Positions 786-63,800 of a DNA stretch of 64,000 nucleotides are shown here, piece by piece. Position 1 is the stretch's first letter; each line of letters starts with the position of its first letter. Under the pieces are notes generated by a model. That model searched no databases and was not told the DNA's origin. It saw only the letters and a list, made by a program, of their open reading frames with translations. Position numbers and translations under genes: made by a program. Origin of the DNA: Prostheceraeus crozeri (lineage: Eukaryota; Platyhelminthes; Polycladida; Euryleptidae); NCBI GenBank assembly GCA_907163375.1, contig CAJQUW010003059.1, forward strand, positions 62,001 to 126,000, in the 5' to 3' direction.

Positions 786-1421
786 ATGACAGATTTTCGT
801 CTATTCACTGATCGCACAATGTGTGTCGCTGGACCAAGTCAGTCCGGTAAAAAAACATTTGTAACTGAATTGCTAAAATATAGAAATGAAATGTTTAACA
901 AGGAAATTAAGAGAGTCAAATGGTATTATGGAATATTTCAACCACAACTACATTCTGCACTTCACCAGAAAGGTTATGAGGTGAAGCAAGGGTTGCCATC
1001 AACTGAGGATATCAAAGCAGGTGACTTACTAGTATTAGATGATCTATTACGAGAAAGCAAATCTTCAAAGGATGTAACTGAAATGTTCATTCAAACTGCA
1101 CATCATAGGGAAGCTTTTATTATCTACATCACCCAAAACATCTTCGATGGAGGGAAAGAGCAAAGAACTAGAAGTTTGAATACACATTATTTGGCAATAT
1201 TTAAAAATCCAAGAGATAGCAGTCAGATACATCATCTCAGTAGACAGATATTACCTCAACAACCTAAAGTACTTTCAAAAATATATGAAGATGTAACAAA
1301 GAAACCACATGGTTATCTATTTATTGATCTAACCCAGGAATGTCCGGAACGACTTCGATTTCGAACAAATATCATACCTAATTTCGCTGAACCAATGACA
1401 GTTTTCTCGGTTCACAGTTAG
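786..1421 (+). CDS. Polinton A packaging ATPase (A32/FtsK-HerA type)
   Basis: 211 aa, the size expected for the Polinton genome-packaging ATPase that pumps DNA into capsids. The P-loop is at residues 16-23 (GPSQSGKK) and the Walker B segment LLVLDDLL at about 81-88. TQNIFDGGKEQRTRSLNTHY at about 118-137 matches the sensor/arginine region of the family. The intact copy in Polinton B (51421-52038) has GPSHAGKT. Here the P-loop Thr/Ser that coordinates magnesium is replaced by Lys, a change likely to impair catalysis and consistent with a decaying element. The ATG at 786 gives the MTDFRLF start that aligns with MDFRLQ of copy B. The conserved partner gene follows 39 bases downstream. Confidence 0.93.
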   Translation: MTDFRLFTDRTMCVAGPSQSGKKTFVTELLKYRNEMFNKEIKRVKWYYGIFQPQLHSALHQKGYEVKQGLPSTEDIKAGDLLVLDDLLRESKSSKDVTEMFIQTAHHREAFIIYITQNIFDGGKEQRTRSLNTHYLAIFKNPRDSSQIHHLSRQILPQQPKVLSKIYEDVTKKPHGYLFIDLTQECPERLRFRTNIIPNFAEPMTVFSVHS

Positions 1422-1460
1422 TTTTAAGCAATGTACTTTGTTGCCTTATTATTTTCAAAC

Positions 1461-2111: not shown

Positions 2112-2145
2112 GCAAATATGAATTAAGCCTTGCCTCTCTCATATC

Positions 2146-2472
2146 ATGTCGTTACAAAAACTTTGCTGTTGTTTGAAATCTGCGCTCGAAGGTAAACGAG
2201 AAGAGGGCATAGAGGTTGATATCAATTGTGTTAGCAGTTGCTGTGCGAGTAATACGCGTGCAAATCAGAACAAAGACGATGAGTACAGCAGTGAAACTCA
2301 GAAAGATTTATTACGATTTAAATCATCCCACAAGTTTCAGTCGTCCGGAGGTTCTAGCTCGTGCAGCAGGTGTGGGAATAGAGAAAGTCAAGAAGTGGTT
2401 GAGGAGTCAACCGACTTACACTCTTTACAAAAATGCGAGAAAGCGGTTTCCAACAAGAAAATATGTTGTTAA
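2146..2472 (+). CDS. Small Cys-rich ORF overlapping the integrase 5' end
   Basis: 108 aa, with ATG 34 bases after the upstream stop. The N-terminal 40 residues are rich in cysteine (CCC, then C and CC clusters), while the rest, which overlaps the integrase frame for about 190 bases, is polar and Ser-rich. Polinton B has an ORF in the same place (52729-52944, 71 aa), also Cys-rich and also ending inside the integrase in the same relative frame. Position and cysteine content are conserved although the sequence is not, which argues for a real product, either a small zinc-binding protein or an N-terminal piece joined to the integrase by frameshifting or splicing. Function unknown. Confidence 0.5.
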   Translation: MSLQKLCCCLKSALEGKREEGIEVDINCVSSCCASNTRANQNKDDEYSSETQKDLLRFKSSHKFQSSGGSSSCSRCGNRESQEVVEESTDLHSLQKCEKAVSNKKICC

Positions 2473-3361
2473 CAATATATATAGTCAATGGCAAGCGGAC
2501 TTGGCTGACATGCAACAGATATCACAGTACAATGATGGCTACAAATACATCTTAACTGTAATAGATATTTTATCTCGCTATGCTTGGGCACGTGCGCTGA
2601 AATCTAATCGAGGACCAGAAGTTGAAGCGGCTTTTCAGAGCATTTTCGATGAGGGGCGTGTTCTGCAAAGAATACAGACCGATCAAGGGAAGGAATTCGA
2701 AAACTCTCATGTTCGAAGTCTCCTTAAAAGTGATAATGTGGAATTGTTTAGTGTCAAAAGTGCTTATAAAGCTGCCATGGTTGAGAGGTTCAATCGCACA
2801 CTGAAGACAAAAATATGGCGCTATTTCACTGCAAAAAATACACATGTTTGGGTAGGTGAGCTGCAGAAATTTGTTAAGAATTACAATGAAAGCTACCATC
2901 GAATCATTAAGATGAAACCAGTTGCTGTTACCCCAGATAATGCGATGGATGTATGGCTTCGATTGTATGATAAGAAAGCGAAAAACATCTCCAATGAAAA
3001 GAAAATTAATTTTGGTGATAGAGTTCGGATTTCAAAGGTTAAGTCTACATTTGAGAAGGGGTATCTACCTAATTGGACTGAAGAAGAGTTTTTTGTGGAT
3101 GAAGTAAATACAAAATGTAGACCCACCATGTATAAACTAATAGATGGCAATCCAATTGAAGGAAAATTTTACTCATATGAATTGCAAGTAGTAGACAGAA
3201 GTGAAGAGGTGTATATGATTGACAAAATAATTAGGTGGAAAGGTCATGGCAATCAAAGGAAATATCTAGTTAAATGGAAAGGATATCCTGATTCATTCAA
3301 TAGCTGGATAACGCACCAGGATCTACAAAATGTGGAGGTGGGAGACACTCGTAACTTTTAA
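2279..3361 (+). CDS. Polinton A integrase (RVE core plus chromodomain)
   Basis: 360 aa from the ATG at 2279 (MSTAVKLRKIYYD), chosen because it aligns with copy B; the frame is open further upstream. It has an N-terminal helical region (about 20-65) and then the RNase H-fold core with the catalytic triad D74 (WQAD), D135 (TDQGKEF) and E169 (VERFNRT). The spacing between the last two is 33 residues, as in Polinton integrases. An SH3-like segment (GDRVRISK) precedes a C-terminal chromodomain at about 310-350 (YLVKWKGYPDSFNSWI). Such integrases insert element ends and produce 6-bp target duplications; the chromodomain may bias insertion to marked chromatin. The frame is undamaged even though other genes of this element are broken. 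Confidence 0.95.
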   Translation: MSTAVKLRKIYYDLNHPTSFSRPEVLARAAGVGIEKVKKWLRSQPTYTLYKNARKRFPTRKYVVNNIYSQWQADLADMQQISQYNDGYKYILTVIDILSRYAWARALKSNRGPEVEAAFQSIFDEGRVLQRIQTDQGKEFENSHVRSLLKSDNVELFSVKSAYKAAMVERFNRTLKTKIWRYFTAKNTHVWVGELQKFVKNYNESYHRIIKMKPVAVTPDNAMDVWLRLYDKKAKNISNEKKINFGDRVRISKVKSTFEKGYLPNWTEEEFFVDEVNTKCRPTMYKLIDGNPIEGKFYSYELQVVDRSEEVYMIDKIIRWKGHGNQRKYLVKWKGYPDSFNSWITHQDLQNVEVGDTRNF

Positions 3362-5514: not shown

Positions 5515-6798
5515 ATGCAGAGTATCAATTCGGCTTTGTGTTTCTTCGATTCTCCCCCTCATCAGACAGACATCATCTCCTCAACAATTGTAGACATAGT
5601 CCCCACAACAAATATCGATGGTAACCAGCAGCCTATTCAGTTTGATATACCTGCCAATCCTCAAGATTATATTGACTGTCAATCCATTGATTTAGAGTTG
5701 TGTATACAAATTAAGAAGACTGATGGTACAAATATCGATTCATCCAAGGATAAAGTGGGATTAGCAAATCTTCCTATTGCCAGTCTGTTCTCAGATGTGT
5801 ATCTAATATTGAATGACAAACAGATTGAAGGAGGGGATCGAGCATATCCATATGGTGCATATATACATACAATGACTCAATTTCAAAAGCAAGCTAAACA
5901 GTCACACTTGCAAGTTTCTGGGTGGTATGATGATCAGCAAGGGAAATTTGATGATGTCTCAAATACAGGGTTGAAAAGACGAATGGATTTAACAGCGGAT
6001 TCAAAGGAATTATACTTGAAAGGACCCGTCTATCTTGATTTCCTTCGTCAATCTAGATATCTGCTATCACAGGTTAAAATGCAAATAAAATTTATTCGTG
6101 CAAATCCTGAGTTCGTGTTAATGGCTTTTGGAGCTACAAACTATCAAGTCAACATAAGTAATGCCGTGCTCAATGAAAGGCGAGTAACAATGAGCCCGTC
6201 AGTCATCAACGAGCATGCGACAGGATTGAGGAAAAACAATGCAATATATCCAGTTAATCACAGTGTGTTGACAAACTTCACAATTGGTGCGGGATCATCC
6301 TCACATGCCTACCCAAATCTTTTTCCCACTGAAATGCCAAAGGCGGTGTATATCACATTTGTGGAAAATGAGGCATTCATTGGTGCTTTTGAAAAGAATC
6401 CATTCAATTTCCAACACTTTAATGTTAGCAAACTAGCACTCTACCAGGATGGGAAATTTGTATCTTGCAAAGCATATGAGCCTAATTTCAAAGATGGTAA
6501 ATTCGCACGTGAATATGGTTCTACTTTCACCGCCCTCAACATGTTTAATACAGATGATTCAAATGGAATTACAATGGATATGTACAAGAATGGCTACTTC
6601 TTCATTATGTACAGCCTCACAGCAGATGCAGATCTAGGTGGTGAAAGCGTAGGAGTTACAAAGCCTGGAAATCTACGACTGGAGGTATCATTTGAGTCAC
6701 CTTTGAAGAAAACAATTACTTGTCTCATTTATGCTATCTATGATAGCAAAGTTGAGATAACAAGAATGAGAGACGTGACTGTCAGCTATCAGAGATGA
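5515..6798 (+). CDS. Polinton A major capsid protein (double jelly-roll)
   Basis: 427 aa from ATG 5515. It aligns along its whole length with the 425-aa protein at 54494: the start FFDSPPHQTDIISSTIVD matches LFDQQAIQTDILSSSIVD, and there are shared blocks around PIQFDIP, DYIDC, LDFLRQSRYLL, HATGLRKNNAIYPV, MFNTDDSNGITM and the C-terminal VEITRMRDV. This is the vertical double-jelly-roll capsid family of Polintons, the basis for regarding them as viruses. The gene is undamaged. The protease ATG overlaps its stop by four bases (ATGA), suggesting coupled translation or a shared late transcript. Confidence 0.92.
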   Translation: MQSINSALCFFDSPPHQTDIISSTIVDIVPTTNIDGNQQPIQFDIPANPQDYIDCQSIDLELCIQIKKTDGTNIDSSKDKVGLANLPIASLFSDVYLILNDKQIEGGDRAYPYGAYIHTMTQFQKQAKQSHLQVSGWYDDQQGKFDDVSNTGLKRRMDLTADSKELYLKGPVYLDFLRQSRYLLSQVKMQIKFIRANPEFVLMAFGATNYQVNISNAVLNERRVTMSPSVINEHATGLRKNNAIYPVNHSVLTNFTIGAGSSSHAYPNLFPTEMPKAVYITFVENEAFIGAFEKNPFNFQHFNVSKLALYQDGKFVSCKAYEPNFKDGKFAREYGSTFTALNMFNTDDSNGITMDMYKNGYFFIMYSLTADADLGGESVGVTKPGNLRLEVSFESPLKKTITCLIYAIYDSKVEITRMRDVTVSYQR

Positions 6799-7100
6799 GT
6801 AACTTAAGCAACATAGAAATCTTGAGGAAAATGAGGAAAGCTCATCCCTACTCCAAGACAATATTTCTCAATGTCTTTTCTAGAGATAATTTACCTGATT
6901 CAATTCCTTTCTATCCTTGTTCGCTTATCATCAATACGGATACCAACAATCTTCCCGGAAAACATTGGATTGCTGTATACATCAATCGTTATAAAGTGGC
7001 CGAATATTTTGACCCTCTTAATCAACCTCGTTTACATGATATCGCATTATGGATGAACAGGTTCTCCTGGACTGTTAGGAAAGTGACGAGAGACCATTGA
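6795..7100 (+). pseudogene. Adenain-like maturation protease, truncated
   Basis: 101 aa against 153 aa in Polinton B (55771-56232). It keeps the catalytic histidine (GKHW, H57) and the acidic residue (YFDPLNQP, D73) of the C5/Ulp1-like cysteine protease family. The reading frame ends before the segment with the oxyanion Gln and nucleophilic Cys (the ST-CG motif in copy B). After the stop, another frame around 7085-7190 still resembles the family's C-terminus, so a deletion with frameshift removed the active-site cysteine region. The protease would process capsid proteins; this copy should be inactive. Confidence 0.8.
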
Positions 7101-7303: not shown

Positions 7304-8233
7304 CTACAATTTGGTTTTCATGAAACATTTTTTCAAATCACATATGATGGGAGGCACATCACTTATGTCTTTGATGCCGGTTATCACAATCTTTCCATTA
7401 TGGAACACATGGACATGATATGGATGCCAGTTAGTCATTTGAGCTGCTGGAAATAACTCCACTTCATAATTTAGATTATGTGATGATGTAACTTTACGGA
7501 AGTCATAGTGATAGTGCAATTCACATAACACGGTCATTGTCTTCACTTTCCAATCAGATACTGAATCACCAAGTAAATGTTCCAAAGTAAAGTGTAGATA
7601 TGAGAGATCACCCTCCATGACCCTTCCAATACATTGGATTGTTCCATTTGGAAAGAATAGGATAGTGAGAGATTTATCCTTCCTCTGAATCCTCCATGTT
7701 AACATTGAGGGTCTTCCAAGATGTAAGCTCGTTGTCGGCTTCAATTTGCGTTTTATCAGTAACCATTGTTTCGGTTGGGTATATTCCTCTCGATCTCTTG
7801 TAGATTGAGTTTTGACTTTGCTTTTGTAGTTAACATCCGATTTACAACTTCCAACCGTTTGATGTCCTCCATCTTTAATGAATGACGTTACCTGTGGTAG
7901 TATCTCCCTTGTAAAGGTTTCCCATGTGACGTCACTGAAACGAAAAAATCGATATTCAACATCTTCACGTTTTGGTGAACAGACGTATAGTTTGACTGAT
8001 GAATCACACTTTATCCATACCTTGTCATCGAGAGGAATCTTGATCCGAGTCTTATGGTTGTCAATGAGATCCGCAAAGTCTTTCAGTGAAGGCAATGAGT
8101 CAATACTAATGCAAACGCCACGATGTTTTCGATCACTATTTGCTATTGAATGACGAAATGCTATTCTTTTAGAATTTGTTATGTGAACGTTTTGAACGTC
8201 ACTAAGTTTCCATGTTCTAATGTAATGAGGCAT
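7304..8233 (-). CDS. TBP-like protein with N-terminal extra domain
   Basis: 309 aa from ATG 8233 (a TTG 21 bases upstream is also in frame). Residues about 1-120 form an N-domain of unknown fold shared with 57127 and 57506 of Polinton B. After a polar linker, residues about 155-300 show the two-repeat core of TATA-binding protein. Repeat 1 has GRPSML and then ILFFPNGTIQCIG (186-203). Repeat 2 has YEVELFPAA (256-264) and HVFHNGKIVITG (275-286). Three of the four DNA-intercalating Phe positions of TBP are kept (about F194, F261, F277); the first Phe of repeat 1 is replaced in the GRPS segment. It probably binds TATA elements, perhaps those of the element itself. It is convergent with the protease and divergent from none; its start faces the hairpin repeats at 8299-8463. 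Confidence 0.85.
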   Translation of the reverse strand: MPHYIRTWKLSDVQNVHITNSKRIAFRHSIANSDRKHRGVCISIDSLPSLKDFADLIDNHKTRIKIPLDDKVWIKCDSSVKLYVCSPKREDVEYRFFRFSDVTWETFTREILPQVTSFIKDGGHQTVGSCKSDVNYKSKVKTQSTRDREEYTQPKQWLLIKRKLKPTTSLHLGRPSMLTWRIQRKDKSLTILFFPNGTIQCIGRVMEGDLSYLHFTLEHLLGDSVSDWKVKTMTVLCELHYHYDFRKVTSSHNLNYEVELFPAAQMTNWHPYHVHVFHNGKIVITGIKDISDVPPIICDLKKCFMKTKL

Positions 8234-8514: not shown

Positions 8515-11500
8515 TTATTCTACATCACCTGCGACAGGAAGGCATCTCCTTCTCTTCGACGGTGGGGGAAGACCTAGGCTGTAGTGTCCATATGGTAATG
8601 ATAAATTTTTATCCAGCCAACAGCGCTTATCCTCCCAAAGTGAAAGACCTCGCTTCCTAAATGATTTTGTGCTAACTATGTGATTTTTTGAATTTAGAAT
8701 TGTCATATCTTCAGTTGTATCATTCTCACTATAATAGACACTCCTATAGTCATTATGTTTCAATTTTTTAACTGCTGCTCTCTGAATTCCTTTTCCACGT
8801 TTGATGCTATGATTCGTAGAGTCTATATATTTCATTGAATACATTTTCGGTTTTAGTAGGATCATTTCCTCAAGCAACTTTCCAGCACACTCATCCTTAA
8901 AACAACCTAATCTAGCTTTGTTTGTAGTTGAGTATAGTCGGTGATGACTGTCATAGTTTGAAGAGTCAAACTTTTCACCGAAGTATAGAAGTATATCTTC
9001 CAGACGGACAGATGGTGATGTGTATAAACATAGGAAGAAACAGTCGGTATCACCTCCACAAAGCCGCGTTCTATTTATCAGTGGACATCCTTTTAGATCA
9101 TTGTAATATAATTGATACATTTCCAACTTACTATAGTCAAGTACTGCTTGACCAACATATATTAATTTATTTAAAACTATTGAAGGTTTGTACATTTCCA
9201 TACCAACCAGATCTTCATCAAATATTTTGTGTTGAACATAGAGAGGATGATTTGACAATTTCAGTAGTTGTTTCTCATTGTTGACTAGTTTAAATTTTTT
9301 CCTTCTCCTTACATTCTCCATTGTTTTACCATATAAAGAATTATTTTTCAATTTGTAGAATGACTTTTCGAAGTCAGTGCTTGATTGAGCCCTCTTTTGA
9401 GAGTTAATATCAATGTATGTTTTTAACCAAGGCTTTTGTGTGAATTTTATGCCACTATGAATCTTCTTGATTCTCATGCCCATGGTCAAGTAAAATTTTA
9501 AAATTGAGTAGTGGACTACATAATTTTTCCTATCAAATTGATGGAGCAGAAGTTTCTTGATAGAAGAAAAATGTGTATTTGGTCTTACTTTTCATATAGA
9601 TTTTTCATATAGTGTGAAAACATTCTCTTTTCAATCATCTGCATTTCTGAAGCTAATGGGAAATCGGCAGTGTCATCATGAATGGCTGCAGAATACTCTA
9701 AATCTAAATAAAAAATGTAGCCGATTTCACCATCATCATCTATATTTTGAACATTTTCTTCATTTAAAAAATTATCTAATTCACTTTCATTCAACCATTT
9801 GAAATTTGAGTGGAGTAGATTCCTACTGGGTGAAGAACCGTAAAGGTCATTAACATCTAAGTAGGTCAAATGTCGACTTTCATGTGTATTATTTCCTAAT
9901 TCTTCAATGCGTGCACGCGCTCGGTGAATGTTGGTGAAAGTCATACCCCCTCTAATTTCTCGTTCAAATAGATTGTACATATTTTCATCTTGTATGTAGT
10001 GTGGGGGATCATTGGAAGAGAAATTTAGTGCTGAGGTAAAGCTAAGATGTGGGAGACTGACAAAATGTACAGGGTCGACTTCATCCTCACGTTAACTCAA
10101 TGCTCTAAACACTTCAAATATGTCTGCCAACAATAAAACATCTAACTTCAGATATGCCAGCATGTAATCACCAAATGTGCTACAATTAAATTCAATCCAT
10201 GCCTTGTTAGCGTGTTCATATTCACTATCGGAACAGTGCTCACGAGTAAGATCATTATAGAATTCAAATTGTGGTGGTAGACAGTCTTCCGTCAACGTGT
10301 TTAAGTTTTTGAAGTATGAATATGGAAACACTCCCTTCTGATATAAAACATTATCACTTAATTGTGGAAATTCTACCCTTAATGTCTCTACATGCTCATA
10401 CGTTTGCAAGCCCTTGGCTAATTCACTCAAGGATGCACTTAGAAATTGATATGAGTCTAAGAATTTTAGTTTAAAGTATACTGTCTTCCCTTTGTATTCA
10501 TTTACAGGGACACTGGCGGATGAAGTTATATATTTTTCAGCAGTTGCTGCTACAACATCTAATTTCCAAGATTTCATTCTTCCAATCGCTTTATAGCAAA
10601 CGATGTGACTATCATAATTTTTAAAATTGTGGAAAAATATGGGGAGCTCCCGTCTGTTAAGTCTTAACCGGAGATTGCATTTCCTACATAATGTTTGCCT
10701 ATATCGTCCGGTGATATGATCATGATCACGAACTTTTATGACTTCATCGCTGAATTTCGATTTACATTTGTTGCAACATTCTGCATTCTCATGACCTACT
10801 TTTTCATCCGCTGACAGTGACATTGGCTGCCTAGTTGTTGCACATTGGTTGTCATATAAGTCTTGGGCTACAGTTTCTAAGTGGTGCAAGAAACTAATAA
10901 TGCAATTTTCTCACTCAAAGAGGTAATGCTTGTTTTCAAATTTCGATTGAAGGGCATTATGCCAGACATGATAAGCTCCAATGGCCGAAGGTTTATGTAT
11001 TTTATTATCAATGTAGCACTCTATATCTGCATAAATTACTAAAGGAGGACTTAGTTGATATTCCATGCTACTTGTTAGTACTTTTAGATCTCTCGGCATT
11101 TTTTCTATTTGTGCTTTTCCTCGAATGCAAAACTGGAAGTGTCGTTCTAGTGTTGTCTTATATGTGAATGACTGAGTGCATCTTTCGCAGAAGTATTTAT
11201 GTCTTTTTAAAGTTCTCCTATACAATCTTGACGGCTTTGGAATTCCACAATAGTGTGCTGCTCCATTGTTTAGAATTAACAAAATATTAACCGTTTGCCT
11301 ACCAGTAAAGTTACTATTGTAACGAACACCTTTGAGTCCATTTTCATAAAAGTGAATGTTAATTTTAATATCATTATTTTTCTCAAATTTTGGAATATCT
11401 TTGATTGATACTGGTGTGGAAATGCCTTCCATATTCAGCTCAGATGTCCACTTACTATATGATTTACTTCATTCCTTGAATAAGGTATATAATGCAATAT

Positions 11501-12426
11501 ATTTAATATATAAATATATATTATATATATTTAATATATATTATAAAGCATTATAATGCAATATTGATAAAACTGCATATAGGAAGCAATCATTTGCATT
11601 TGAATTAACATTAATGACAGCTCTAGAGTTTCTTAACTTCTTTGGTAGAGGATATGATTGTCCACCTGACAGTATTGGACTTGTTATTACATTGAACTCT
11701 ATATTTTGTACATCATCTATAATCCAATTGCTACCCTTTTTTGTGAAGGCTTCAATATGATTTATCAGACTATTTAGATGATCCTGAAACCAAGCATCAT
11801 AGTCATAAATATAGTTTGAGGATGATGAGGTAAAGTGTGCGAGAAATGTTTCTTCTTCTTGAGGATTAGAACGGACATAACGAATTTGTGCAATCAGACG
11901 ACCGCGCAATTGATAGCTCCTTAGTAAGTCAGACACTAAATTCCCCAACATGGAACGCATGCTTTCTAAGAATGATGTTATGTCCAAATTAGGTGTTGTT
12001 GGCGTGATATCATACACACGTGCATGGCCATTGAGTGCGCTTTCGCTGAGACTAACAGTTCCATAGTTATTATGCATATTCATCTCACTATTTGTATTAC
12101 GTACATTCATATGCTGTCGAAATCTACTTATAGAGTTATACGTTTTGCCACACCGAGAGCAGTATTGCATGAAGTTTTGTATGTTAGTTGAAGCGCTGGT
12201 TGTTGGCTTCGAAGTAGATCTATTTTGATTATTTGAATTTGACTCTGTTATGCTATCATTCGGTTTATTATTGCATACAAGTTTATGCCTCTTAAGATTA
12301 TCCATCCTATTCGTCTTATGGACACTTGCTACATTGATACGTTTTTCCTAACTTACAAAATTTTTCATGACGTTGCAAATTGCCTATGAGAGTGAACACT
12401 TTTCCACACTTGGTACAGACAACCAT
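8515..12426 (-). pseudogene. Protein-primed family-B DNA polymerase, decayed (Polinton A)
   Basis: The gene reads leftward from ATG 12426. It starts with C2H2-type zinc fingers (CTKCGKVF to HEKFC), meets a stop near 12320, and continues in shifted frames at 12305-11541, 11432-10911, 10889-10092, 9980-9585 and 9489-8515. Together the pieces follow the intact polymerase at 60807-64000. Recognisable parts are the N-terminal LPKKLRN and AVLSILHYN block, Exo I (YADIECYID), an HNH-like zinc motif (CNKC to VRDHDHITGRYR), Exo II (FHNFKNYDSH), Exo III (YLKLDVLLLAD), motif A (DVNDLYG), motif B (KNNSLYGKT) and motif C (GGDTDCFF, with Ser changed to Cys). It would replicate the element from terminal-protein primers. 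At least four frame breaks, one at an AT-rich insertion, make it nonfunctional. Confidence 0.9.
11480..11562. repeat. AT-rich insertion in polymerase pseudogene
   Basis: A roughly 70-base tract of TATATTTAATATA-type sequence interrupts the polymerase between its N-terminal block and the following fragment. The same short word (TATAATGCAAT or its near-inverse TTGCATTATA) occurs at both edges, as if a small insertion or slippage event duplicated it. The corresponding part of the intact polymerase has no such tract. Confidence 0.6.
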
Positions 12427-21812: not shown

Positions 21813-22200
21813 AGTAGTAAGAAAACGGCGAACACCCGACCGGCGCGCCCCCCCTCTGGAACGACAGAGTGTCGTGGTGTGCCGGCCAGGTGGGTCCAGG
21901 TTCGCTGACGTCCCCCCCCCTCTGGAACGACAGAGTGTCGTGGTGGACTTGGGCGACCGCCAGGTTTTGTCTTGAGGCTATAGTGTGTGATGTTTTTCGT
22001 GAAATCTGATGAATGTTGGATTGTAAAATGGACTGTTTCGAGTGGAAGCAGTGCTCGGATGTGAAAACGGAGGCCAGATTTGGATTCAGCGTGAAATTCT
22101 GCATCGGTATGGTGAATTTGAAAGCAATCGGAGAGAAAAATTTTCGCTGACGTCCCCCCCCCCCCGGCACCGACCTTCCAACTTTGCTTCCAGTGGACGG
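21813..22200. repeat. Polinton terminal region with C-tracts (left)
   Basis: C homopolymers of 7-10 bases follow CTGACGTC or GCG, and each is followed by TCTGGAACGACAGAGTGTCGTGG. Within this, ACGACAGAGTGTCGT is an inverted repeat with six-base arms. The same blocks are in the right terminus (40490-40856) and at the start of Polinton B (46750-46960). They are candidate sites for terminal-protein or transcription-factor binding. Confidence 0.65.
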
Positions 22201-22703: not shown

Positions 22704-22711
22704 TATATAAG
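22704..22711 (+). promoter_or_regulatory. TATA box of coiled-coil gene (left arm)
   Basis: TATATAAG lies about 47 bases before a perfect donor (ACG/GTAAGT, 22757/22758). A start near 22735 gives a short noncoding exon. The same word stands at 39956-39963 on the other arm. Confidence 0.65.
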
Positions 22712-51032: not shown

Positions 51033-51389
51033 ATGGCGAAACGTAAAATGACGAAACGTAAAAGTCAAAAGTTTTCTTCAGCCATTCAAGCTCTCCGACG
51101 AATGAAAGCAAATCAGCGATACAATGCTATACGACATGCTAACGATAAATTCATTTGTGAAATTATTTCTCATGTGAGGAAGTTGAGGACGAAGAAATTA
51201 GCGCCAAAACAACGAAAGTTACTTAAGCGATATGCTACGAAATTGCGTTTCATCTCCAATCCTAAAGTCGCCCTTCAAAGAAAGAGGAAAACTCTAACAC
51301 AAAAGGGCGGTTTCCTTTCAGCAATACTTCCAATGATAGCTCCTGCCGTGGGCAACCTATTGGGTAATATCTTTGGCTCTAAGCGTTAA
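51033..51389 (+). CDS. Small basic protein with hydrophobic C-terminus
   Basis: 118 aa. Lys/Arg-rich for about 85 residues (start MAKRKMTKRKS), then QKGGFLSAILPMIAPAVGNL, a Gly-bounded hydrophobic/amphipathic end. A protein of this shape, with a QKGGFL-type motif, is common in Polintons upstream of the ATPase. It may condense DNA and disturb membranes, but that is inference. Polinton A has no visible counterpart in its first 800 bases. Confidence 0.7.
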   Translation: MAKRKMTKRKSQKFSSAIQALRRMKANQRYNAIRHANDKFICEIISHVRKLRTKKLAPKQRKLLKRYATKLRFISNPKVALQRKRKTLTQKGGFLSAILPMIAPAVGNLLGNIFGSKR

Positions 51390-51420
51390 TTATGCAAATG
51401 TTGAATCTCAAAGTAATAAA

Positions 51421-52038
51421 ATGGATTTCAGACTTCAATGTGATAAAGTTCTGACTGTATCAGGTCCATCTCATGCAGGTAAAACTGTTTTCACGCTGAA
51501 TTTATTGGATAAAAGAAGGGAGTTGTTTAAGGAACCTATCAATCGAGTGATTTGGTGTTATGGTATTTATCAACCGTCGCTGTTTCAGGAATTGCAAAGT
51601 CGCAACTTTATTCGACATGAAGGAATTATTCCAGTGGATAAACTTCAGTCTAATGATGTTGTTGTATTGGATGATTTATTAAAAGAAAGTAAGAATTCAA
51701 AAGATGTTACAGATATGTTCACTCGCGCAGCACACCATAAAGGGTGCTTTATCATCTATATCACACAAAATTTGTTTCCTGATGGAAAAGAAGCTCGTAC
51801 ACGAAACCTGAATACACACTATTATGCTATTTTCAAGAATCCGCGAGATAAAAGTCAATTTGAAATTTTAGCGCGACAAGTTGCACCCAGAGGATCAAAA
51901 GCCTTAATTGAAATTTTTCAAGCAGCTACTGAAAAACCATACGGTTACTTATTCATTGACTTTACGCAAGAGTGTCCGGAAGAATTTAGATTTCGAAGTG
52001 ATATTTTGAAAACTCCCATGATTATCTACAAACTATGA
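51421..52038 (+). CDS. Polinton B packaging ATPase (A32/FtsK-HerA type)
   Basis: 205 aa from ATG 51421, chosen by alignment with copy A (the frame extends upstream to 51373 inside the previous gene). The intact P-loop GPSHAGKT is at 15-22, Walker B VVVLDDLL at 80-87, and TQNLFPDGKEARTRNLNTHY downstream. It should package element DNA into capsids. The stop overlaps the next ATG (ATGA), a sign of translational coupling or a shared transcript. Confidence 0.95.
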   Translation: MDFRLQCDKVLTVSGPSHAGKTVFTLNLLDKRRELFKEPINRVIWCYGIYQPSLFQELQSRNFIRHEGIIPVDKLQSNDVVVLDDLLKESKNSKDVTDMFTRAAHHKGCFIIYITQNLFPDGKEARTRNLNTHYYAIFKNPRDKSQFEILARQVAPRGSKALIEIFQAATEKPYGYLFIDFTQECPEEFRFRSDILKTPMIIYKL

Positions 52039-52728: not shown

Positions 52729-52944
52729 ATGAAGCAGATGTGTTGCTTGCCATGTAATGAGCCGCCAGAGGTGAATGTCGTTGTCACTTGCACTTGCTGC
52801 GCCAGCTCTCATAATGAAACCCCTAAGCAATGTGAACACGATCGCAAAACCGCTAAAGCTAAATGCTGCAGTTGTTGTAAATGTAGAAAGGCAAGAAAAC
52901 AAAAAGATGAGAAGGAGGAAAAAGAGTCAGCCGTCATCGACTGA
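52729..52944 (+). CDS. Small Cys-rich ORF overlapping the integrase 5' end (copy B)
   Basis: 71 aa, ATG one base after the preceding stop. About 14 cysteines, several in CC and CxxC arrangements (CCSCCKC), then a charged tail. It overlaps the integrase ATG by 38 bases in the same relative frame as in Polinton A. A small zinc-cluster protein, or a frameshift-joined N-terminus of the integrase, are the two readings. Confidence 0.55.
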   Translation: MKQMCCLPCNEPPEVNVVVTCTCCASSHNETPKQCEHDRKTAKAKCCSCCKCRKARKQKDEKEEKESAVID

Positions 52945-53995
52945 ACGTTTGAAGTCAATCTATTATGATGTAAAACATCCGGCAGGATTTGCATCTATCA
53001 AGAAATTATCAAAAGCGAGTGGTCTTCCATTATCACAAGTGAAACGATGGTTAAAGGGTCAGGCTACCTATACACTCCACAAACAAGCGAAAAAGAAGTA
53101 CCGCACCCGCCATTATATTGCTCATGACATCGATGAACAGTGGCAAGCAGATTTGTGTGATGTTGCCTCCATTTCAAAACATAACTCGGGCAATAATTTT
53201 ATTTTAACCGTCATTGATATTTTCTCGCGTTATGCGTGGGCTCAACCTTTAAAAACTAAAGAAGGGAAAGGAGTAGCAAAAGCATTCCAAACAATTTTTC
53301 GAGAAGGTCGCATTCCAAAAAGAATTCAGAGTGATCAAGGAAAAGAGTTTGAAAATCAGCATGTGACAAGATTATTTGAGAGGCATGACATTGAGTTGTT
53401 TAGTGTAAAGAGCGCTTATAAAGCTGCACTCGTTGAACGTTTTAATCGCACATTAAAAAATCGCTTGTGGCGACATTTTACTGCCAACTTGACACAAAAT
53501 TGGACAAAGGTTCTACAAGATACACTCCATGCCTACAATCACTCTATCCATCGTTCTATTGGACTCAGACCAGTAGATGTAAATGCTGACAATGTAGATA
53601 AAGTGCGCGAATCATTCCAACGTAAACGCACTCATGTGAAAAGTGATGTGAAAATTGGCGATAAAGTTCGTATCTCAAAAGTGAAAAGTGTTTTTGCTAA
53701 AGGGTACCTCCCGAATTGGACAGAGGAGGTATTTACAGTATCAAGGATTAATCAAAAAGACTCTCCGACCACCTACAAGTTGAAAGATTACGATAATGAA
53801 GAAATTGAGGGTAGCTTTTACCGCGATGAGATTGAGGTAGTCACTGAAAGTGAAACATATTTGGTAGAGAAAATCATTCGATGTAAAAAACGGCAAGGTG
53901 AAGAATGGTGTCTTGTTAAATGGACTGGTTATCCTTCAAGTATGAACTCTTGGATGCGTCGTGCCGACATCTTTCATCTAAGTGATCGACAGTGA
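52907..53995 (+). CDS. Polinton B integrase (RVE core plus chromodomain)
   Basis: 362 aa from ATG 52907 (MRRRKKS). Helical N-region at about 25-65, catalytic D82, D143 and E177 (33 residues between the last two), an SH3-like GDKVRISK at about 251-258, and a chromodomain at 317-357 (YLVEKI, LVKWTGYPSSMNSW). The intact frame suggests it could be the enzyme that mobilised the palindromic derivative, which shares its ends. The frame is open upstream to 52775, but that region is already used by the Cys-rich ORF. Confidence 0.96.
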   Translation: MRRRKKSQPSSTERLKSIYYDVKHPAGFASIKKLSKASGLPLSQVKRWLKGQATYTLHKQAKKKYRTRHYIAHDIDEQWQADLCDVASISKHNSGNNFILTVIDIFSRYAWAQPLKTKEGKGVAKAFQTIFREGRIPKRIQSDQGKEFENQHVTRLFERHDIELFSVKSAYKAALVERFNRTLKNRLWRHFTANLTQNWTKVLQDTLHAYNHSIHRSIGLRPVDVNADNVDKVRESFQRKRTHVKSDVKIGDKVRISKVKSVFAKGYLPNWTEEVFTVSRINQKDSPTTYKLKDYDNEEIEGSFYRDEIEVVTESETYLVEKIIRCKKRQGEEWCLVKWTGYPSSMNSWMRRADIFHLSDRQ

Positions 53996-54036: not shown

Positions 54037-54504
54037 ATGAATCCAACTGCCTCATTTTATTCACGACCCTCCTATGTAAGTGGCGGAGGACAAATTTACA
54101 TCGGTGCTCGCCGCCAACGTGGAGGTAGCATACTTGGTGCACTGAAATCTGTTGTAGCACCTCTCATATCCAATGTCGGTAGATCTTTAAAACGAAATGT
54201 TTTAAGTAATGCCGTTGGCTTTGCTGGTGATGTTGCTAGTGATCTTTCCAGAGGTAGAAGTTTTAAGAGCAGTTTGTTGAATCGTGGGAAGGAACGCGGT
54301 TTAAAAACATTGAAGCAGACCATTGCTGGTGTTACTCAAGGAAAGAAATCACCTAAACGAATGAAAAAGGAAGGAGGAAACATCGCGGAGCTGGTAAGGT
54401 GCGATCTTCAGTCAAAAGGCATTCACGCAAACGTCGCAGAGGCTCTAATCATTCATCAGGCGCTAAACGACGACGCTGCTATAACTTCTAATCATGGAGT
54501 GTAA
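54037..54504 (+). CDS. Small basic virion-associated protein (GRRQ-GG family), frameshifted tail
   Basis: 155 aa. The N-terminus FYSRPSYVSGGG, then GARRQRGGSILG, and the amphipathic middle match 5022-5504. From about residue 112 the frame becomes nondescript, while the +1 frame from about 54380 to the stop at 54489-54491 is dense in Arg/Lys, as the family tail should be, and ends just before the capsid ATG. A one-base indel in the purine run AAAAAGGAAGGAGGAAA (54363-54380) would explain this; recoding there is possible but less likely. Confidence 0.7.
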   Translation: MNPTASFYSRPSYVSGGGQIYIGARRQRGGSILGALKSVVAPLISNVGRSLKRNVLSNAVGFAGDVASDLSRGRSFKSSLLNRGKERGLKTLKQTIAGVTQGKKSPKRMKKEGGNIAELVRCDLQSKGIHANVAEALIIHQALNDDAAITSNHGV

Positions 54505-55771
54505 AACTTCCGGTTTTTGTTTATTCGATCAACAAGCCATACAGACAGATATTCTTAGTTCAAGTATTGTAGATTATCATCCTCGAACAGCTGAGAATGC
54601 TGGCCCCATTGAATTTGTTATTCCTGGTGGTAGTGATGACTACATAGATTTGAGTTATGCGATGCTTGATTTGAGGTTTAGAATTCAGCAAGCAGATGGA
54701 ACTGCTATTGACGATACACATAAAGTTGGACTGAACAATTTACCATTGACTACATTACTTCGCGATGTTTCTCTAACGATTGGAGAGCAGCAGGTGGAAG
54801 GTGGTCAAAGCGATTATCCCTATAAATCATATTTCAATCATGTATCACAGTTTCATCCAGCAGCACAAAAAAGTCATATGGAAGCCATGGGATGGTATAG
54901 AGATGAAGCAGGAAAATTTGATGTTGAAACAAACAGTGGCTTTGTAAAGCGATCTGCTATGATTAAAGATAGTAAAGTATGTCAGCTATATGGTCCGCTG
55001 AATTTAGACTTCTTTAGACAGTCAAAGTTTTTACTCTGTAATACCAGCATGCGACTCAAGCTGACATTGAATAAGCCTGAATTTGCGCTGAATGCATTTG
55101 CTAAAGTTGACAATTTTAGAATTCATGTGGAAGATATTGCACTTTACATTCGTCGAGTAGTACCGAATCCAAGTGTCATTAGAGGGCATGCTGAAGGCCT
55201 TAACCGCCAAAATGCCATTTACCCCGTTCAGCATACAAAGCTTCTCACCTTTACAATTCCGAAAGATCAAAAGAGTTTCATGAAAGTTGGCCTCTTTCCA
55301 TCGGAAGCACCGAAGCTCCTCATGGTGGCAATGGTTGAAAATGATGCATTTAATGGTAATATAAAGAAGAATCCTTTCAATTTTAAACACAATCAGTTAA
55401 GTGAAATTGCTTTACGTGTAAATGGTGTGAGTCATCCTGGTCCACCCTACAAACCAGATTTTGCTTCGGATCAATTTATGCGCAGTTATGTTGATTTTAT
55501 GGATGTCTTTGGCTTTTACAATACGGATGACACCAACGGACTTACTATGAAAGAGTTTAAGAGTGGATATACTATTTATGCATTTGATTTGACTGCTGAC
55601 AGCGATATTAGTGCACCCTATCGTCAAGCGAACGTGCCTCATAATATTCGTTTGGATTTGACGTTCAAAAGAACACTACCTGAGACGATCAATGTATTAA
55701 TTTATGCAGTCTTCGATTCAAATATTGAAATTACAAAGTATCGTGACGTGATTCTTCAGTATAATCGTTAA
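54494..55771 (+). CDS. Polinton B major capsid protein (double jelly-roll)
   Basis: 425 aa. It aligns throughout with 5515-6798: an N-terminal QTDILSSSIVD, PIEFVIPGGSDDYIDL, LNLDFFRQSKFLL, GHAEGLNRQNAIYPVQH and a C-terminal FDSNIEITKYRDVILQY. Undamaged. Its stop TAA overlaps the protease ATG (TAATGA). Forms the hexameric shell units by family analogy. Confidence 0.94.
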   Translation: MECKTSGFCLFDQQAIQTDILSSSIVDYHPRTAENAGPIEFVIPGGSDDYIDLSYAMLDLRFRIQQADGTAIDDTHKVGLNNLPLTTLLRDVSLTIGEQQVEGGQSDYPYKSYFNHVSQFHPAAQKSHMEAMGWYRDEAGKFDVETNSGFVKRSAMIKDSKVCQLYGPLNLDFFRQSKFLLCNTSMRLKLTLNKPEFALNAFAKVDNFRIHVEDIALYIRRVVPNPSVIRGHAEGLNRQNAIYPVQHTKLLTFTIPKDQKSFMKVGLFPSEAPKLLMVAMVENDAFNGNIKKNPFNFKHNQLSEIALRVNGVSHPGPPYKPDFASDQFMRSYVDFMDVFGFYNTDDTNGLTMKEFKSGYTIYAFDLTADSDISAPYRQANVPHNIRLDLTFKRTLPETINVLIYAVFDSNIEITKYRDVILQYNR

Positions 55772-56232
55772 TGAGTTGGTTGACTGCTGACGATATTAAG
55801 ACTAAAGTGCAGCGTAATGCAGACGAAGCGACGTTGAAAGCTTTCGATAATGTCTATTCACTCGATACCTTACCACCTGCAGTAAATCACTATCCCATCT
55901 TTATTGTGCTAAACACTCATTCAAAGAATTTAGGCGGTGAGCATTGGAAAGCGATCTTTATTGGAGAAGACCGACGTGGTGAACTATTTGACTCTCTTGC
56001 TCAACCTCCAAATATACCAACACAGCAGTGGTTGAGAAAACATACGCGTCAATATCAGCGAAATGAACGCATACTACAACATCCACTTTCATCAACGTGT
56101 GGTGCTTTTGTACTGTACTTCATCTTAAGACGTTTACATGTATCTCGATTTGCATCTGTTATTCAAAACTTTTCATGTAATCCATCCTCTAATGAAAAAA
56201 TGATTTGTAAGTTCTATCATGATTTGAAATAA
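55771..56232 (+). CDS. Adenain-like cysteine protease (Polinton B)
   Basis: 153 aa. The catalytic set is complete: H58 (GGEHW), D74 (LFDSLAQPP), Q103 and C110 (QHPLSSTCGAF). Family C5/Ulp1-type fold; it should cleave capsid and core proteins during maturation. Starts inside the capsid stop codon. An AATAAA follows the stop (TGAAATAAAAAC) and meets the end of the oppositely transcribed TBP-like gene. Confidence 0.93.
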   Translation: MSWLTADDIKTKVQRNADEATLKAFDNVYSLDTLPPAVNHYPIFIVLNTHSKNLGGEHWKAIFIGEDRRGELFDSLAQPPNIPTQQWLRKHTRQYQRNERILQHPLSSTCGAFVLYFILRRLHVSRFASVIQNFSCNPSSNEKMICKFYHDLK

Positions 56233-56289: not shown

Positions 56290-56805
56290 TCAATGAGATA
56301 GTCTACGATCATATTTGCTTTGTACATGAGATTCTAGTCCAGTAATGATCACTTTACTATTATGAAAGATTGCCACATGCACAGGTAACCAACAACTAAT
56401 GAGAGCTGCAGGAAAAAGTTCGGGTTCATAACACAAACTGTAACTGCTGGTACGAATCTTCAAAAATGATACACTTTCACTCAATTGAGTAGAGATCACC
56501 ATATTGTCCACAGTCAGATTCGACATCACACACCTCTCCCTCTTCCATATCCGACGTAGTAGTCTTTGTAGCTCTAAGCGCATTGACTGCGCCGATGAAT
56601 GAGAAAGGGCGCCGAGAATCTGTACAGTCCCATTTGGGAAGAGTTGAAGATTCCGTGAATTGTTCATCTTCACCACTAACATTTGAGGACGGCCCGGGTA
56701 ATACTTGCTGTTTGGAAGCTGTTGGTGTAATGTTGTGAGATCGATTTTGGTGTAGAGTCTGAAGCGACGGAGAATGTTGACGATGGTGTAGCGATGGCGC
56801 TTCAT
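56290..56805 (-). CDS. TBP-like protein, core only (Polinton B)
   Basis: 171 aa from ATG 56805; the frame is open to 56949. It is almost exactly one TBP core. Repeat 1 has KIDLTTL, KYYPGRPQML and LQLFPNGTVQILGA. The linker/second repeat opens LTVDNMVIS, then YEPELFPAALI (126-136) and VAIFHNSKVIITG (144-156). Phe at 56, 131 and 147 match three of the four DNA-kinking Phe of TBP; the fourth is replaced (GRPQ). The N-domain that is fused in Polinton A lies upstream here in a different frame (56477-57127). TATA-box recognition, perhaps of the element's own promoters, is the inferred role. Confidence 0.86.
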   Translation of the reverse strand: MKRHRYTIVNILRRFRLYTKIDLTTLHQQLPNSKYYPGRPQMLVVKMNNSRNLQLFPNGTVQILGALSHSSAQSMRLELQRLLRRIWKRERCVMSNLTVDNMVISTQLSESVSFLKIRTSSYSLCYEPELFPAALISCWLPVHVAIFHNSKVIITGLESHVQSKYDRRLSH

Positions 56806-57127
56806 GATGAAAGAATGAGTAAATTGAGCGATGTACCTTCCTTTTATACTTTTCCCAACTACCTTGATGAAATGTGAAGTTAGTATGAAGTTGGGAATGA
56901 TAGAGTTGAATTCGCCGATTGTTGACGCGCAGCCAGATGCGATTTCCAATACGTGAATGTCTTTTCATATAGAAGTATTTCAAGTCCTTCATGATATGAT
57001 GTAGAGATTGAAAATGACGATAAGATAAAGCAAACTCTCTTCTCACATTTCCAGTTGAATCTTTGAAATAGACGTTTCGATCATGATCCGTTTCAATACG
57101 TTGTAGGGAATCTAATTTCCAACTCAT
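56477..57127 (-). CDS. N-domain protein upstream of/overlapping the TBP-like ORF
   Basis: The first 115 or so residues from ATG 57127 (MSWKLDSLQRIETD) match the N-terminal domain of the Polinton A TBP-like protein and the separate 118-aa protein at 57506: W-LDSL, a LSYRHFQSLHHIM block, IGNRIWLRV, IQLYHS, FTFHQGSWEKYKRKVHRSI. The remaining 100 residues have no counterpart and overlap the TBP core in another frame, so they are probably a by-product of a frame break that separated N-domain and core. Alternatively a frameshift during translation could join them. The two-half pattern with a W near the end of each half loosely recalls PC4; unproven. Confidence 0.6.
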   Translation of the reverse strand: MSWKLDSLQRIETDHDRNVYFKDSTGNVRREFALSYRHFQSLHHIMKDLKYFYMKRHSRIGNRIWLRVNNRRIQLYHSQLHTNFTFHQGSWEKYKRKVHRSIYSFFHHEAPSLHHRQHSPSLQTLHQNRSHNITPTASKQQVLPGPSSNVSGEDEQFTESSTLPKWDCTDSRRPFSFIGAVNALRATKTTTSDMEEGEVCDVESDCGQYGDLYSIE

Positions 57128-57149: not shown

Positions 57150-57506
57150 TTAAGATTTGCATAGTAGGGCGATGAACTCACGACGAATAAATGTCATGAT
57201 GGAGCGATGTATGTATCTTCTATACTTCTCCCAATTGTATTTGCGAAATGAGAAACAGTTTGCGGAATGAGAATGGTAGATTTGAATTTCATTTCTGTAA
57301 TGTTGAAGCCAAACTTGATCACCCAAGGAGATGAATCTTAATGTTTCAAAATATTCCAAATCCCTCATGATATCATTGAGGTTGACAAATTGTCGCCATG
57401 TTAATGTAATTCCTCTTGATGTATGACCATGAGAATTTTTGAAATGTACGTTTCCATCACGATCAACTCTGATATATTGTAGAGAGTCCAAAATCCAAGT
57501 CTTCAT
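57150..57506 (-). CDS. Stand-alone N-domain protein
   Basis: 118 aa from ATG 57506. A tandem paralogue of the N-domain at 57127, sharing WILDSLQYIRVDRDGNV, the ITLTWRQFVNLNDIMRDLEYF block, SLGDQVWLQ and YNWEKYRRYIHRSI. It has no TBP part. Its existence shows the domain can work alone. It starts back to back with the penton-like gene at 57542, 35 bases away, so the interval 57507-57541 must hold both 5' ends. Confidence 0.65.
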   Translation of the reverse strand: MKTWILDSLQYIRVDRDGNVHFKNSHGHTSRGITLTWRQFVNLNDIMRDLEYFETLRFISLGDQVWLQHYRNEIQIYHSHSANCFSFRKYNWEKYRRYIHRSIMTFIRREFIALLCKS

Positions 57507-57541
57507 GATGTTATGCAAAGTTGCAGATTAGCAATATAAAA

Positions 57542-60806: not shown

Positions 60807-63800
60807 TTATGCTAAGACGTCTCCTGAATGTGGTAGTGTGAGTTTAATTCTTTTGGGTGGTGGTATGTTTGTGTCAGGATGTCCATGTGGAAGAGATATG
60901 TTGTGTTCTAACCAGCACCTCTTATCCTCCCATGCTGAAAGCGCCCGTTTCCTAAAAGTATGAGTTTTGATCTCATGCGACTTAGATTTTAAGATTGTCA
61001 TATTGACAAACGTTATATTTTTATTTCTATAGGCTTTCCTGAAATTCTTATGTTTCATATTAGAGACCAATGATTTTGATATGCCTTTAGCGCGCTTAAT
61101 GCTATCATCACTATCCTTTAATTTCATAGAATACATTTTTGGACGGAGGAGAATCATTTCATCTATTTCCTTCCCTGCTGTCTCATCCTTAAAGCAGCCA
61201 AGTTTTGCCTTATTTTTGATGGAGTAGAGTGGGTGATCAGTAGGATAATTTGATGTATCAAAATATCTTTCTAAAGATTTTCCTACTTCATTGAAATTTA
61301 AATCTTTTTGAGTGGTAATACCTAAGAAGAAACTATCTGTATCACCACCCAACAAACGAACCTCTTTTACGAGAGGACATGGTTTTAGTATTTTATAAAA
61401 GAGTTGGTACATTTCAAGCTTAGAGTAATCTAGTACAGCTTGACCAATATAGATGGGTTTGCACAACTCAACTTCAGATTTTATCATTTTAACACCTACA
61501 AGGTCCTCATCGATTATGTCTCTATCGATGAATAGAGGTGATGAGACCAATTTGTGATACTTTTGATCATCATTAACTAGTTTATAGTTTACACGTTTTC
61601 TAACATCCTCCATCGTCTTACCAAATAGACTATTATTCTTATATTTATAAAAATCTTTTTCAAAATTATTTTGGGCTAGTGCACGTTTCTGGCTGTTGCT
61701 ATCAATATATGGTTTGAGGAAGGCTTTCTGTCTAAATTTAATAATGCGGTGAACTCTTTTTAAAATCATACCCATTTCTAAATAAAATTTTAAGATGCTA
61801 AAGTGGACTAGATAGTTTTCTTTATCATACTGGGTGAGTAAAAGTTTGCGGCAAGGCTTATAGTCGGGTTGACCGCATGATTCTAAATCTTTATGAAATT
61901 GTTTCATAAAGTCGGAAAACATATCTTGGGTCACTTCACCTGATTCGGGTGCGAGTGGAAAATCTACGGTTTTATGTTTAATATTATTTGGATAGATTAG
62001 ATCTATCTCAAAATAATATCCCCAATCACCTTCATCTGGAATTGCTAGTATGTTAGAAGGGTTGGAGAAATGTTGAATATCACTATCATCCAACCAGCTA
62101 AACTCAGAGTGAGGTAGCGGTTTGGATAATGAACTACCATACAAATTATTTTGGTCATAATACTTAAGATGAGTCTGATCATCGCCTACTATTTTTGATT
62201 TTAACCTATGTTTATTTACAAATGTGAGACCACCGCGAATTCCTCGCTCAAATAAATTATACATCTCTGGATCTTGTAAGAGATGAATGGTCTCACCAGT
62301 CATTTTAAAAGCAGACTTAAATGACATGGCTGGTAGACTGACAAAGTGGACGGGATCTAACTTATCTTCTTCTAATGCCACTCGTCGAAACTCCTGAAAT
62401 ACATCAGCCAGCAAAAATACATCTAACTTAAGGTAGGCAATCATATATTCACCAAATGTATGGCAGTCAAATTTTATCCATGCATCTTGTGCATGATCAT
62501 AATCTTCGGTCTTACATTCTGCGCCGGTCAAATCATTTTTAAATTTATCTATGGGCGGAAGAGAAGTCTCGCCGAGTTTACTAATCGCATCAAAATATGC
62601 ATATGGAAAGACTCCTTTCCGTGTGATGACTTCATCGGTTAGATTTGGGTATTGTTTCTTAAGATTTTGTGTTAGTGGAAGAGACTTTAGATTTTGCACG
62701 AGAGAGGCCAGTGATGCAGTCATAAATTGGTAGGAATCTAAAAATTTTATATCAAAATAGACCGTCTTATTTTCTTTAGTTTTATCGACAGGCACTTTTG
62801 CTGTCATGGCCATAAACTTCTCTCTCGTTTGCGCTATTACATCAAGCTTCCACTCTTTCATTTGACCTAAACCTCCTTTTATTATCATATGGCTGTCGTA
62901 GCCCTTGAAATTATGGAAAATGACGGGTAATGTACGCCGTTTCATCCTAAGTGAAAAATTGCATTTTGAACATAGTGCGTTTCTAAATTTACCATTGATG
63001 TGATCATGGTCGCGCACTTTCTTAATCTTATCATCATCAAATGTTTTCCTACATTTGGGGCAAATGTTGCAACTATCAAATTTTGCTTGATCATCTGCTG
63101 TCATATGCAATGATCTGCGATAGAGTTCACCATCATGTTTTTGTTGAAATTTTACAGCCTGTTCGAGGAATTGTAGGAATTGGTAAATACAATCCTCACC
63201 TTGCCAGACGCGCATTTTATTTTGCCTACTCCTAAAGTGATCATGCCATACTTCATAGCAGGAAATGGCTGCTGGTCGATGGATGTTATCATCGATATAA
63301 CATTCGATGTCAGCATAGATGACACGAAGAGGACTTAGTTCATCACCATTCTCTCTATATGAAAACTCCTTATCTTTGGGCATGCGCTCCATTTGCAGTT
63401 TACCTCGCTTACACCATTCGTAATGAGTTTCAAATTTAGTTTTCCTCCTAAAGTGGCGAATACATCTGTCGCAGTAATATAACTCTCTACTAGAGTTTTC
63501 TAAGTGGTGGTATAAGCGAGGGATTTTGGGAATACCGCAGTAGTGCCATTCCTCACTATCATCCTGTTTTACTAATAACAGGTTTACTGTACGTTCATAA
63601 CAACTCGAACGCGAGTTGTAGCGCACACCCTTCAATCCCTTTTCCCAAACATGGAGAACTATTTTGATGTTGTTCAATTTTTCAAATTTTTCTATATCTT
63701 TAATTTTCATATCGTCACTATTACAGTCATCGAAGTTTAATTCATTCTCCCACTGTTGATACTTACTCTTGCGGTATCGACTATTCTGCACATCATTATA

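Follow-up and report, generated by a model that had tools for sequence, protein, structure and literature searches.

A TATA-binding-protein homologue in Polintons of the flatworm Prostheceraeus crozeri, overlapping a second gene and possibly serving transcription initiation with host TFIIB

Few components of eukaryotic transcription initiation are as conserved as the TATA-binding protein (TBP). Its C-terminal lobe carries the TFIIB site and its N-terminal lobe the contacts for TFIIA, Mot1 and TAF1, and diverged TBPs (TRF2/TBPL1 and TRF3/TBPL2) are used at other promoters. TBP genes also appear in passages on mirusviruses (PMC10132985), mirus-like repeats of Cymbomonas (PMC10675990), Megavirus (PMC11464507) and the large virus CpV-BQ1 (PMC12085832). 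According to the relevant sections of PMC7221094, the TBPs of large DNA viruses have one TFIIB-contact position conserved at about 40%, have lost the N-lobe signature and nearly always occur together with a viral TFIIB. Kaposi's sarcoma-associated herpesvirus (KSHV) has a TBP mimic, ORF24, that works with host RNA polymerase II (Pol II); passages on it describe a protein without the TFIIB-contact residues, with both N-lobe Phe kept, that was judged incompatible with TFIIB (PMC12529657). For Polintons/Mavericks and adintoviruses, we found neither a TBP nor an overlapping PUR-like gene described in the literature searched, a scope outside which most subscription papers fall, and the matching passages of PMC12220804, PMC7786948, PMC12638062, PMC13037468 and PMC10741620 report no Polinton TBP. 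Here we describe a 64,000-nucleotide (nt) stretch of the P. crozeri genome (contig CAJQUW010003059.1, positions 62,001 to 126,000; hereafter the window), which holds two Polintons, A and B, each with a TBP gene that begins inside a second gene, ORF1.

A sequence-only reading of the window had placed in Polinton A a single protein of 309 amino acids (aa) at 7304-8233, strand not given, whose second half it took for a TBP core. The frame lies on the minus strand, and its C-terminal half is indeed a TBP homologue: it matches PF00352 in one stretch (E 4.3e-11, 42.9 bits, cut-off 22.9), it retrieves TBPs from the PDB by sequence (best E 1.2e-4), and the blocks GRPS, FFPNG and CIG of repeat 1 and YEVELFPAA and HVFHNGKIVITG of repeat 2 are present as described. 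The single protein, on the other hand, was not borne out. A homology search with the frame retrieved eight proteins, seven of which match the N-terminal half only (ORF1, 186 to 198 aa), while P0005 (193 aa), a stand-alone two-lobe TBP, matches the C-terminal half only. Since these relatives hold one half each and the missing start of repeat 1 sits in another frame, we read the 309-aa frame as a fusion of two overlapping genes, run together by a frame disruption that this decayed copy has suffered, and rejected it as one protein. The decay of Polinton A is concluded from its short protease frame and from a DNA polymerase B (PolB) split over several frames. That the resemblance arose by chance, or that the fused frame encodes one real protein with an extra N-terminal domain, is scarcely credible: the frame runs uninterrupted in the window, but profile and fold results exclude chance, and the one-half relatives, the overlapping frames in both Polinton lineages and the 95-aa P0117, which looks like another frame-mixed piece, speak against a genuine fusion protein.

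Profile, predicted fold, relatives, substitution rates and linkage lend strong support to the broader claim, that of a TBP-like factor encoded by a Polinton, with the qualification that the copy in Polinton A is broken and a better one, TBP-B, lies in Polinton B. Both checks proposed in the sequence-only reading came out in favour of TBP. In the profile search, TBP-B matches PF00352 in two stretches with 66.5 bits, again above the cut-off, as do all 82 members chosen for A4 (E <= 0.001), one search having yielded 108 relatives; archaeal-TBP models of NCBIfam match the Polinton TBPs below their curated cut-offs. The fold check was run on TBP-B instead of the broken TBP-A, and the AlphaFold2 model and the fold searches gave a confidently predicted two-lobe saddle.

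The retention of three of the four DNA-intercalating Phe, with Pro in the first position, which belongs to the N-terminal lobe, was also upheld: it was read by eye in TBP-A and counted in alignments for TBP-B, for P0005 and for the family. Our site tally covers 106 TBPs of a set of 109, including P0117 but excluding P0118-P0120, which stand closer to cellular TBPs or are of uncertain position; rows with a gap at a site were set aside, giving totals of 70 to 106. The first Phe position is Pro in 83 of 84 (within a GRPxML motif) and Gln in P0053, while the other three Phe are kept in 105, 105 and 106 of 106; the family has three of the four Phe that define a canonical TATA-box TBP. The Glu pair that contacts TFIIB is kept in 101 and 102 of 106, and the lobe Asn in 70/70 (lobe 1) and 83/105 (lobe 2). 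Residues on the TFIIA side of the N-terminal lobe and the lobe-1 Thr are changed.

Could these genes be captured host TBP copies without function? Mobile elements do capture host genes, and TBP-A of the window and some other copies are broken, but we regard this as very improbable. In the tree, the Polinton TBPs branch off together as a deep clade of their own (36 rows, P0120 included, against 9; support 98/97; total branch length 1.30), from rows hand-chosen for length and spread (35 of the 106, P0118-P0120, the contig L001 treated below and six cellular TBPs). The host's canonical TBP exon is 79% identical to Arabidopsis thaliana TBP over 117 aa, and only 28% to TBP-B over 68 aa. The ratio of nonsynonymous to synonymous substitution rates (dN/dS) in the TBP-only part of seven overlapping pairs of intact copies is 0.09-0.30, a range in which two pairs with dS >1 are rough and for which pairs were picked among open-frame copies, favouring low values. 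Finally, the gene stands beside the protease in both Polinton lineages. A second host TBP relative, the gene fragment L014, which we take to resemble TRF2/TBPL1, has weak matches to the two Polinton TBPs (E 0.016 and 0.052).

Where the module is unbroken, ORF1 and TBP are separate genes that overlap, as Polinton B and sister copies at other places in the genome show. The TBP gene begins within ORF1 in the +1 frame, and the module lies on the minus strand, next to the protease, in both Polintons of the window; in Polinton B, where both frames are open on that strand, the last 329 nt of ORF1-B overlap TBP-B. The TBP frame is open in all eight near-identical B loci, the window being one (171, 210, 171 and five times 181 aa, with differing C-termini), six of which have a full ORF1 with its start; ORF1 is interrupted in L004 and has no start at that place in L005. 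Six A-type loci have an open TBP frame of 184-189 aa, with an ORF1 frame of at least 186 aa in five and of 132 aa in L024. Among four more diverged B-type loci, ORF1 measured from its first Met has 171, 198 and 222 aa in three, and none of at least 100 aa was listed for L018. The loci read were the best-scoring of their searches, not a random sample. In all 18 (the window again being one) the TBP adjoins the convergent protease and the capsid-like gene. On the other side of the module lies PolB in the six A-type loci and another Polinton gene in the 12 B-type loci.

Furthermore, we examined the overlap from proteins alone, by recording for every pair the longest run of TBP residues readable from DNA that also encodes ORF1. 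In the +1 phase, P0007 gave a 71-residue run with P0005 (database proteins from contigs that differ in length, 5093 and 2082), and P0123, 99% identical to ORF1-B, gave one of 79 residues with TBP-B. The maximum among shuffled controls was 8 (n=680). Across all 19 x 109 = 2071 ORF1/TBP pairs, 67 reached at least 12 in the +1 phase and none in the other (maximum 9), and with the order swapped the maximum was again 9. The controls come from a run without P0012 and P0126, whereas the 2071 pairs take in all 19 ORF1-type proteins. Thus, from the long +1-phase runs of the informative pairs relative to the controls, the overlap is a property of both lineages, though not shown for every relative. Overprinting is clear in the ORF1/TBP pair, where relatives support each of the two frames.

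In the assembly (2.05 Gb, 14,165 contigs), a degenerate pattern for the FHN[S/G]K...ITG block of the Polinton TBPs has 3,531 + 3,259 = 6,790 exact matches, which are motif matches and not proven whole genes; the reversed pattern has 0. The best-scored hits are stop-free in 150 of 150 rows for TBP-B and in 149 of 150 for an A-type query.

Because the C-terminal lobe is kept, the N-terminal lobe has drifted and the scanned open reading frames (ORFs) hold no TFIIB or RNA polymerase, the Polinton TBP can be read as a factor that would depend on host TFIIB while evading host regulation. The last point refers to the Polinton ORFs covered by Pfam scans, which did not extend to the one end of each element that continues past the window. 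We consider it probable, with ample room for doubt, that ORF1 and TBP form a two-gene module supplying an element-specific promoter factor that docks on host TFIIB, with ORF1 as its partner. The Polinton TBP would bind and bend the element's promoters with an altered preference, probably not of the TATA type; its C-terminal stirrup would dock host TFIIB and so recruit host Pol II; and its changed N-terminal lobe would let it escape control by host TFIIA, Mot1 and TAF1. ORF1 is its probable partner and might keep hold of the opened strand or serve as a cofactor in the manner of PC4; this is the weakest step. The earlier suggestion that an element-encoded TBP allows promoter choice independent of host supply fits in part; the kept TFIIB contacts, together with the lack of TFIIB and RNA polymerase in the scanned ORFs, suggest that host TFIIB and Pol II would still be used.

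The same residues bear on a different role, that of a decoy or shut-off factor binding host TFIIB or promoters unproductively and damping host transcription or defence. The TFIIB contacts are kept while one intercalating Phe and the N-lobe contacts are changed, as such a role would allow; yet the three remaining Phe and the lobe Asn point to retained DNA binding, and a host-poisoning gene matched by its motif thousands of times in the genome would presumably be costly. We therefore regard a decoy as unlikely. Recruitment of the TBP fold for another DNA task, such as promoter-guided integration, origin marking or genome packaging, also seems unlikely to us: the element does encode a chromodomain integrase, and ORF1 is predicted to resemble single-strand nucleic-acid binders usable in replication, but it is hard to see what the conserved TFIIB-contact stirrup would do there.

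Several observations weigh against the promoter-factor module. N189 is kept in only 20 of 83 TBPs, stops fall inside 22 of 150 rows found with a distant query, and among the four more diverged B-type loci TBP has 181 aa in two and is cut at 138 aa in two (L015 and L018). In the overlap comparison, the window's own B pair, with a run of 108 residues, is compatible by construction, being one DNA, and five ORF1 proteins (P0002, P0003, P0004, P0129 and P0130) have no TBP partner above 11 in the set, a count made in the same run as the shuffled controls. These observations leave the central steps of the reading as they stand.

ORF1 is predicted to adopt a PUR/Whirly/PC4-like fold, of the single-strand-nucleic-acid-binding type, followed by a low-confidence acidic tail encoded within the TBP overlap. 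PUR/Whirly-type single-strand binders can serve replication as well as transcription. The first Foldseek rows for ORF1 are unrelated enzymes (E > 0.001), and among six ORF1-type proteins Pfam gave no PUR match at E <= 1 and one weak match, to Nudix_hydro (E 0.06, below cut-off). ORF1 differs from PUR-alpha, Whirly and PC4 in having no Pfam match above cut-off and in its acidic tail, and its identity to PUR-alpha is 8%. A second, tail-less relative directly beside ORF1-B suggests duplication of the PUR-like gene.

Regarding promoters, the regions upstream of the element's genes do not support a TATATAAG-type target. TATA[AT]A was seen in 1 of 28 such regions against a dinucleotide-shuffle mean of 4.0 (22 of 300 shuffles were as low), a count that may be biased as many of the 28 regions are coding, and neither TATA-like nor TATT-like motifs are enriched upstream of element genes. 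The single case, TATAAAAG, is present in all eight near-identical B loci and is a possible promoter of the inner TBP gene itself, which we offer as a lead only. AGCTAATA, chosen post hoc from a k-mer list, occurs in 3 of the 28 regions (shuffle mean 0.12) and is likewise a lead, to a possible promoter-like motif. It stands at 3361 (+), 5505 (+) and 8297 (-), shortly upstream of genes, in Polinton A only among the three window segments scanned.

Features of the two Polintons are collected in Table 1. The ATPase-like, integrase, putative capsid, protease-like and polymerase genes, among others, have homologous counterparts in the two Polintons. Both integrases have a chromodomain, and their rve matches reach 2e-11 and 1.2e-10. 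The capsid candidates (425-427 aa in A and B) are putative double jelly-roll major capsid proteins, and the polymerase, a family-B enzyme of viral/organellar type, is presumably protein-primed. PolB-B has no match among PDB sequences at E <= 0.1; PHROGs gave endonuclease VII for PolB, the remaining NCBIfam and PHROGs matches are weak (best E 0.0059), and Rfam gave none at gathering thresholds. Inverted matches flank Polinton B (L011 4778-5000 to window 48201-47979, 91%; L011 4825-5000 to 48478-48303, 98%); these repeats also occur in tandem and elsewhere in the window, and the element ends were not traced.

Table 1. Features of Polintons A and B, with positions counted from the first nucleotide of the window
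Feature	Positions	Strand	Basis or remark
Open frame, 309 aa, ATG at 8233	7304..8233	-	Read as fusion of ORF1-A start and TBP-A end in a frame-disrupted Polinton A copy
TBP-A, later part (rest of repeat 1 and repeat 2)	7304..7740 (upper end approximate)	-	Pfam TBP 4.3e-11; homologue P0005
TBP-A, first part (start of repeat 1), different frame, overlaps ORF1-A	7759..7872	-	19/31 identical to P0016
ORF1-A, N-terminal part	7800..8233 (lower end approximate)	-	Relatives P0002-P0004, P0006-P0009
TBP-B, stand-alone two-lobe TBP, 171 aa	56290..56805	-	Pfam E 1.9e-18, predicted fold
ORF1-B, 216 aa, predicted tandem bbbba (PUR/Whirly-like) and low-confidence acidic tail	56477..57127	-	P0123 99% identical
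TATAAAAG, candidate own core promoter of TBP-B	56841..56848	-	43 nt upstream of TBP-B start, inside ORF1-B
ORF1b-B, second, tail-less ORF1 relative, directly upstream of ORF1-B	57150..57518	-	
Polinton A packaging-ATPase-like gene	786..1421	+	52% identical to B; weak AAA match
Polinton B packaging-ATPase-like gene	51373..52038	+	Weak Pox_A32 match, E 0.052, below cut-off
Polinton A integrase (rve and chromodomain)	2216..3361	+	Pfam
Polinton B integrase (rve and chromodomain)	52775..53995	+	Pfam
Polinton A putative major capsid protein	5515..6798	+	43% identical to B over 428 aa; no Pfam match
Polinton B putative major capsid protein	54494..55771	+	Homology to A; no Pfam match
Polinton A protease-like frame, short, convergent to TBP-A	6795..7100	+	39% identical over 79 aa to B protease
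Polinton B cysteine protease (Peptidase_C48/C5-like), convergent to TBP-B	55771..56232	+	PF02902 E 0.001, 19.4 bits, just under cut-off of 20.7
Polinton A DNA polymerase B, several broken frames	8515..12305	-	DNA_pol_B_2 5.7e-10
Polinton B DNA polymerase B, 1044 aa, open	60807..63941	-	46-56% identical to four A pieces; no DNA_pol_B_2 match itself

Two further structures were observed in the window. A near-perfect inverted repeat of about 19 kb (21814-40855), with arms up to 99% alike and central tandem repeats of 29/63-nt spacing, carries two mirror copies of Polinton-B left-end genes and shares sequence with the right flank of Polinton B; it may be a real rearrangement or an assembly artefact. 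A fragment at 19521-19967 has a DDE_3 transposase match (8e-12).

Pattern scans of IMG/VR with P0001, A2, A4, A5 and A6 matched 0, 18, 19, 38 and 5 stretches, with no relative among them; phage records gave no relatives, and plasmids gave one archaeal TBP. A scan of genome contigs found one relative, L001, among 63 pattern matches. This 3352-bp contig in a Zixiibacteriota metagenome-assembled genome carries, in the region 914-3351, a Pox_A32-type ATPase (2.7e-5, above cut-off) and, on the other strand, a cut, canonical-looking TBP (Pfam 2.5e-38) unlike the Polinton A/B family. It is probably a mis-binned Polinton-like fragment with a different TBP; therefore, TBP carriage may reach beyond this Polinton family and not be confined to it.

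Taken as a whole, the account would be that a Polinton family with about 6,800 TBP-motif copies carries a transcription-initiation cassette, in which a TBP minus one Phe plugs into host TFIIB and Pol II, a PUR-like partner is written over it, and promoter specificity has diverged from that of the host; we judge this full account evenly poised between right and wrong. If true, a mobile element would supply its own core-promoter recognition, and nature would have run an experiment separating what TBP needs to call Pol II from the parts that can change to escape host control. Such a cassette could help explain how a full set of virion genes is expressed from host chromatin and how Polintons multiply into the thousands. 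The core promoter code that it predicts could show up in transcription-start maps of the host.

In comparison with known systems, the elements themselves are of the Polinton/Maverick and adintovirus kind, having PolB and a chromodomain-bearing rve integrase in common with them, along with ATPase-like, protease-like and putative capsid genes and candidate flanking inverted repeats. Their TBP shares with cellular TBP (PF00352; 1ytb of yeast, 1cdw of human, 2z8u of Methanocaldococcus jannaschii) the two-lobe saddle, the Phe pair of the C-terminal lobe, the YExELFP stirrup and the lobe Asn. It differs in being element-encoded, in its 19-27% identity in structural alignments, in the Pro at the first Phe position and in the altered TFIIA side and Thr of the N-terminal lobe. 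TRF2/TBPL1 and TRF3/TBPL2 are diverged as well, but are host genes. As far as the passages on viral TBPs extend (PMC7221094; mirusviruses, PMC10132985), these are likewise element-encoded two-lobe TBPs whose N-lobe regulatory signature is not conserved, whereas in the Polinton family the Glu pair is retained, and neither a TFIIB nor an RNA polymerase was detected in the scanned ORFs. Relative to KSHV ORF24, as portrayed in those parts of PMC12529657 that treat it, the stand-alone two-lobe Polinton protein of about 170-195 aa presents the reverse pattern.
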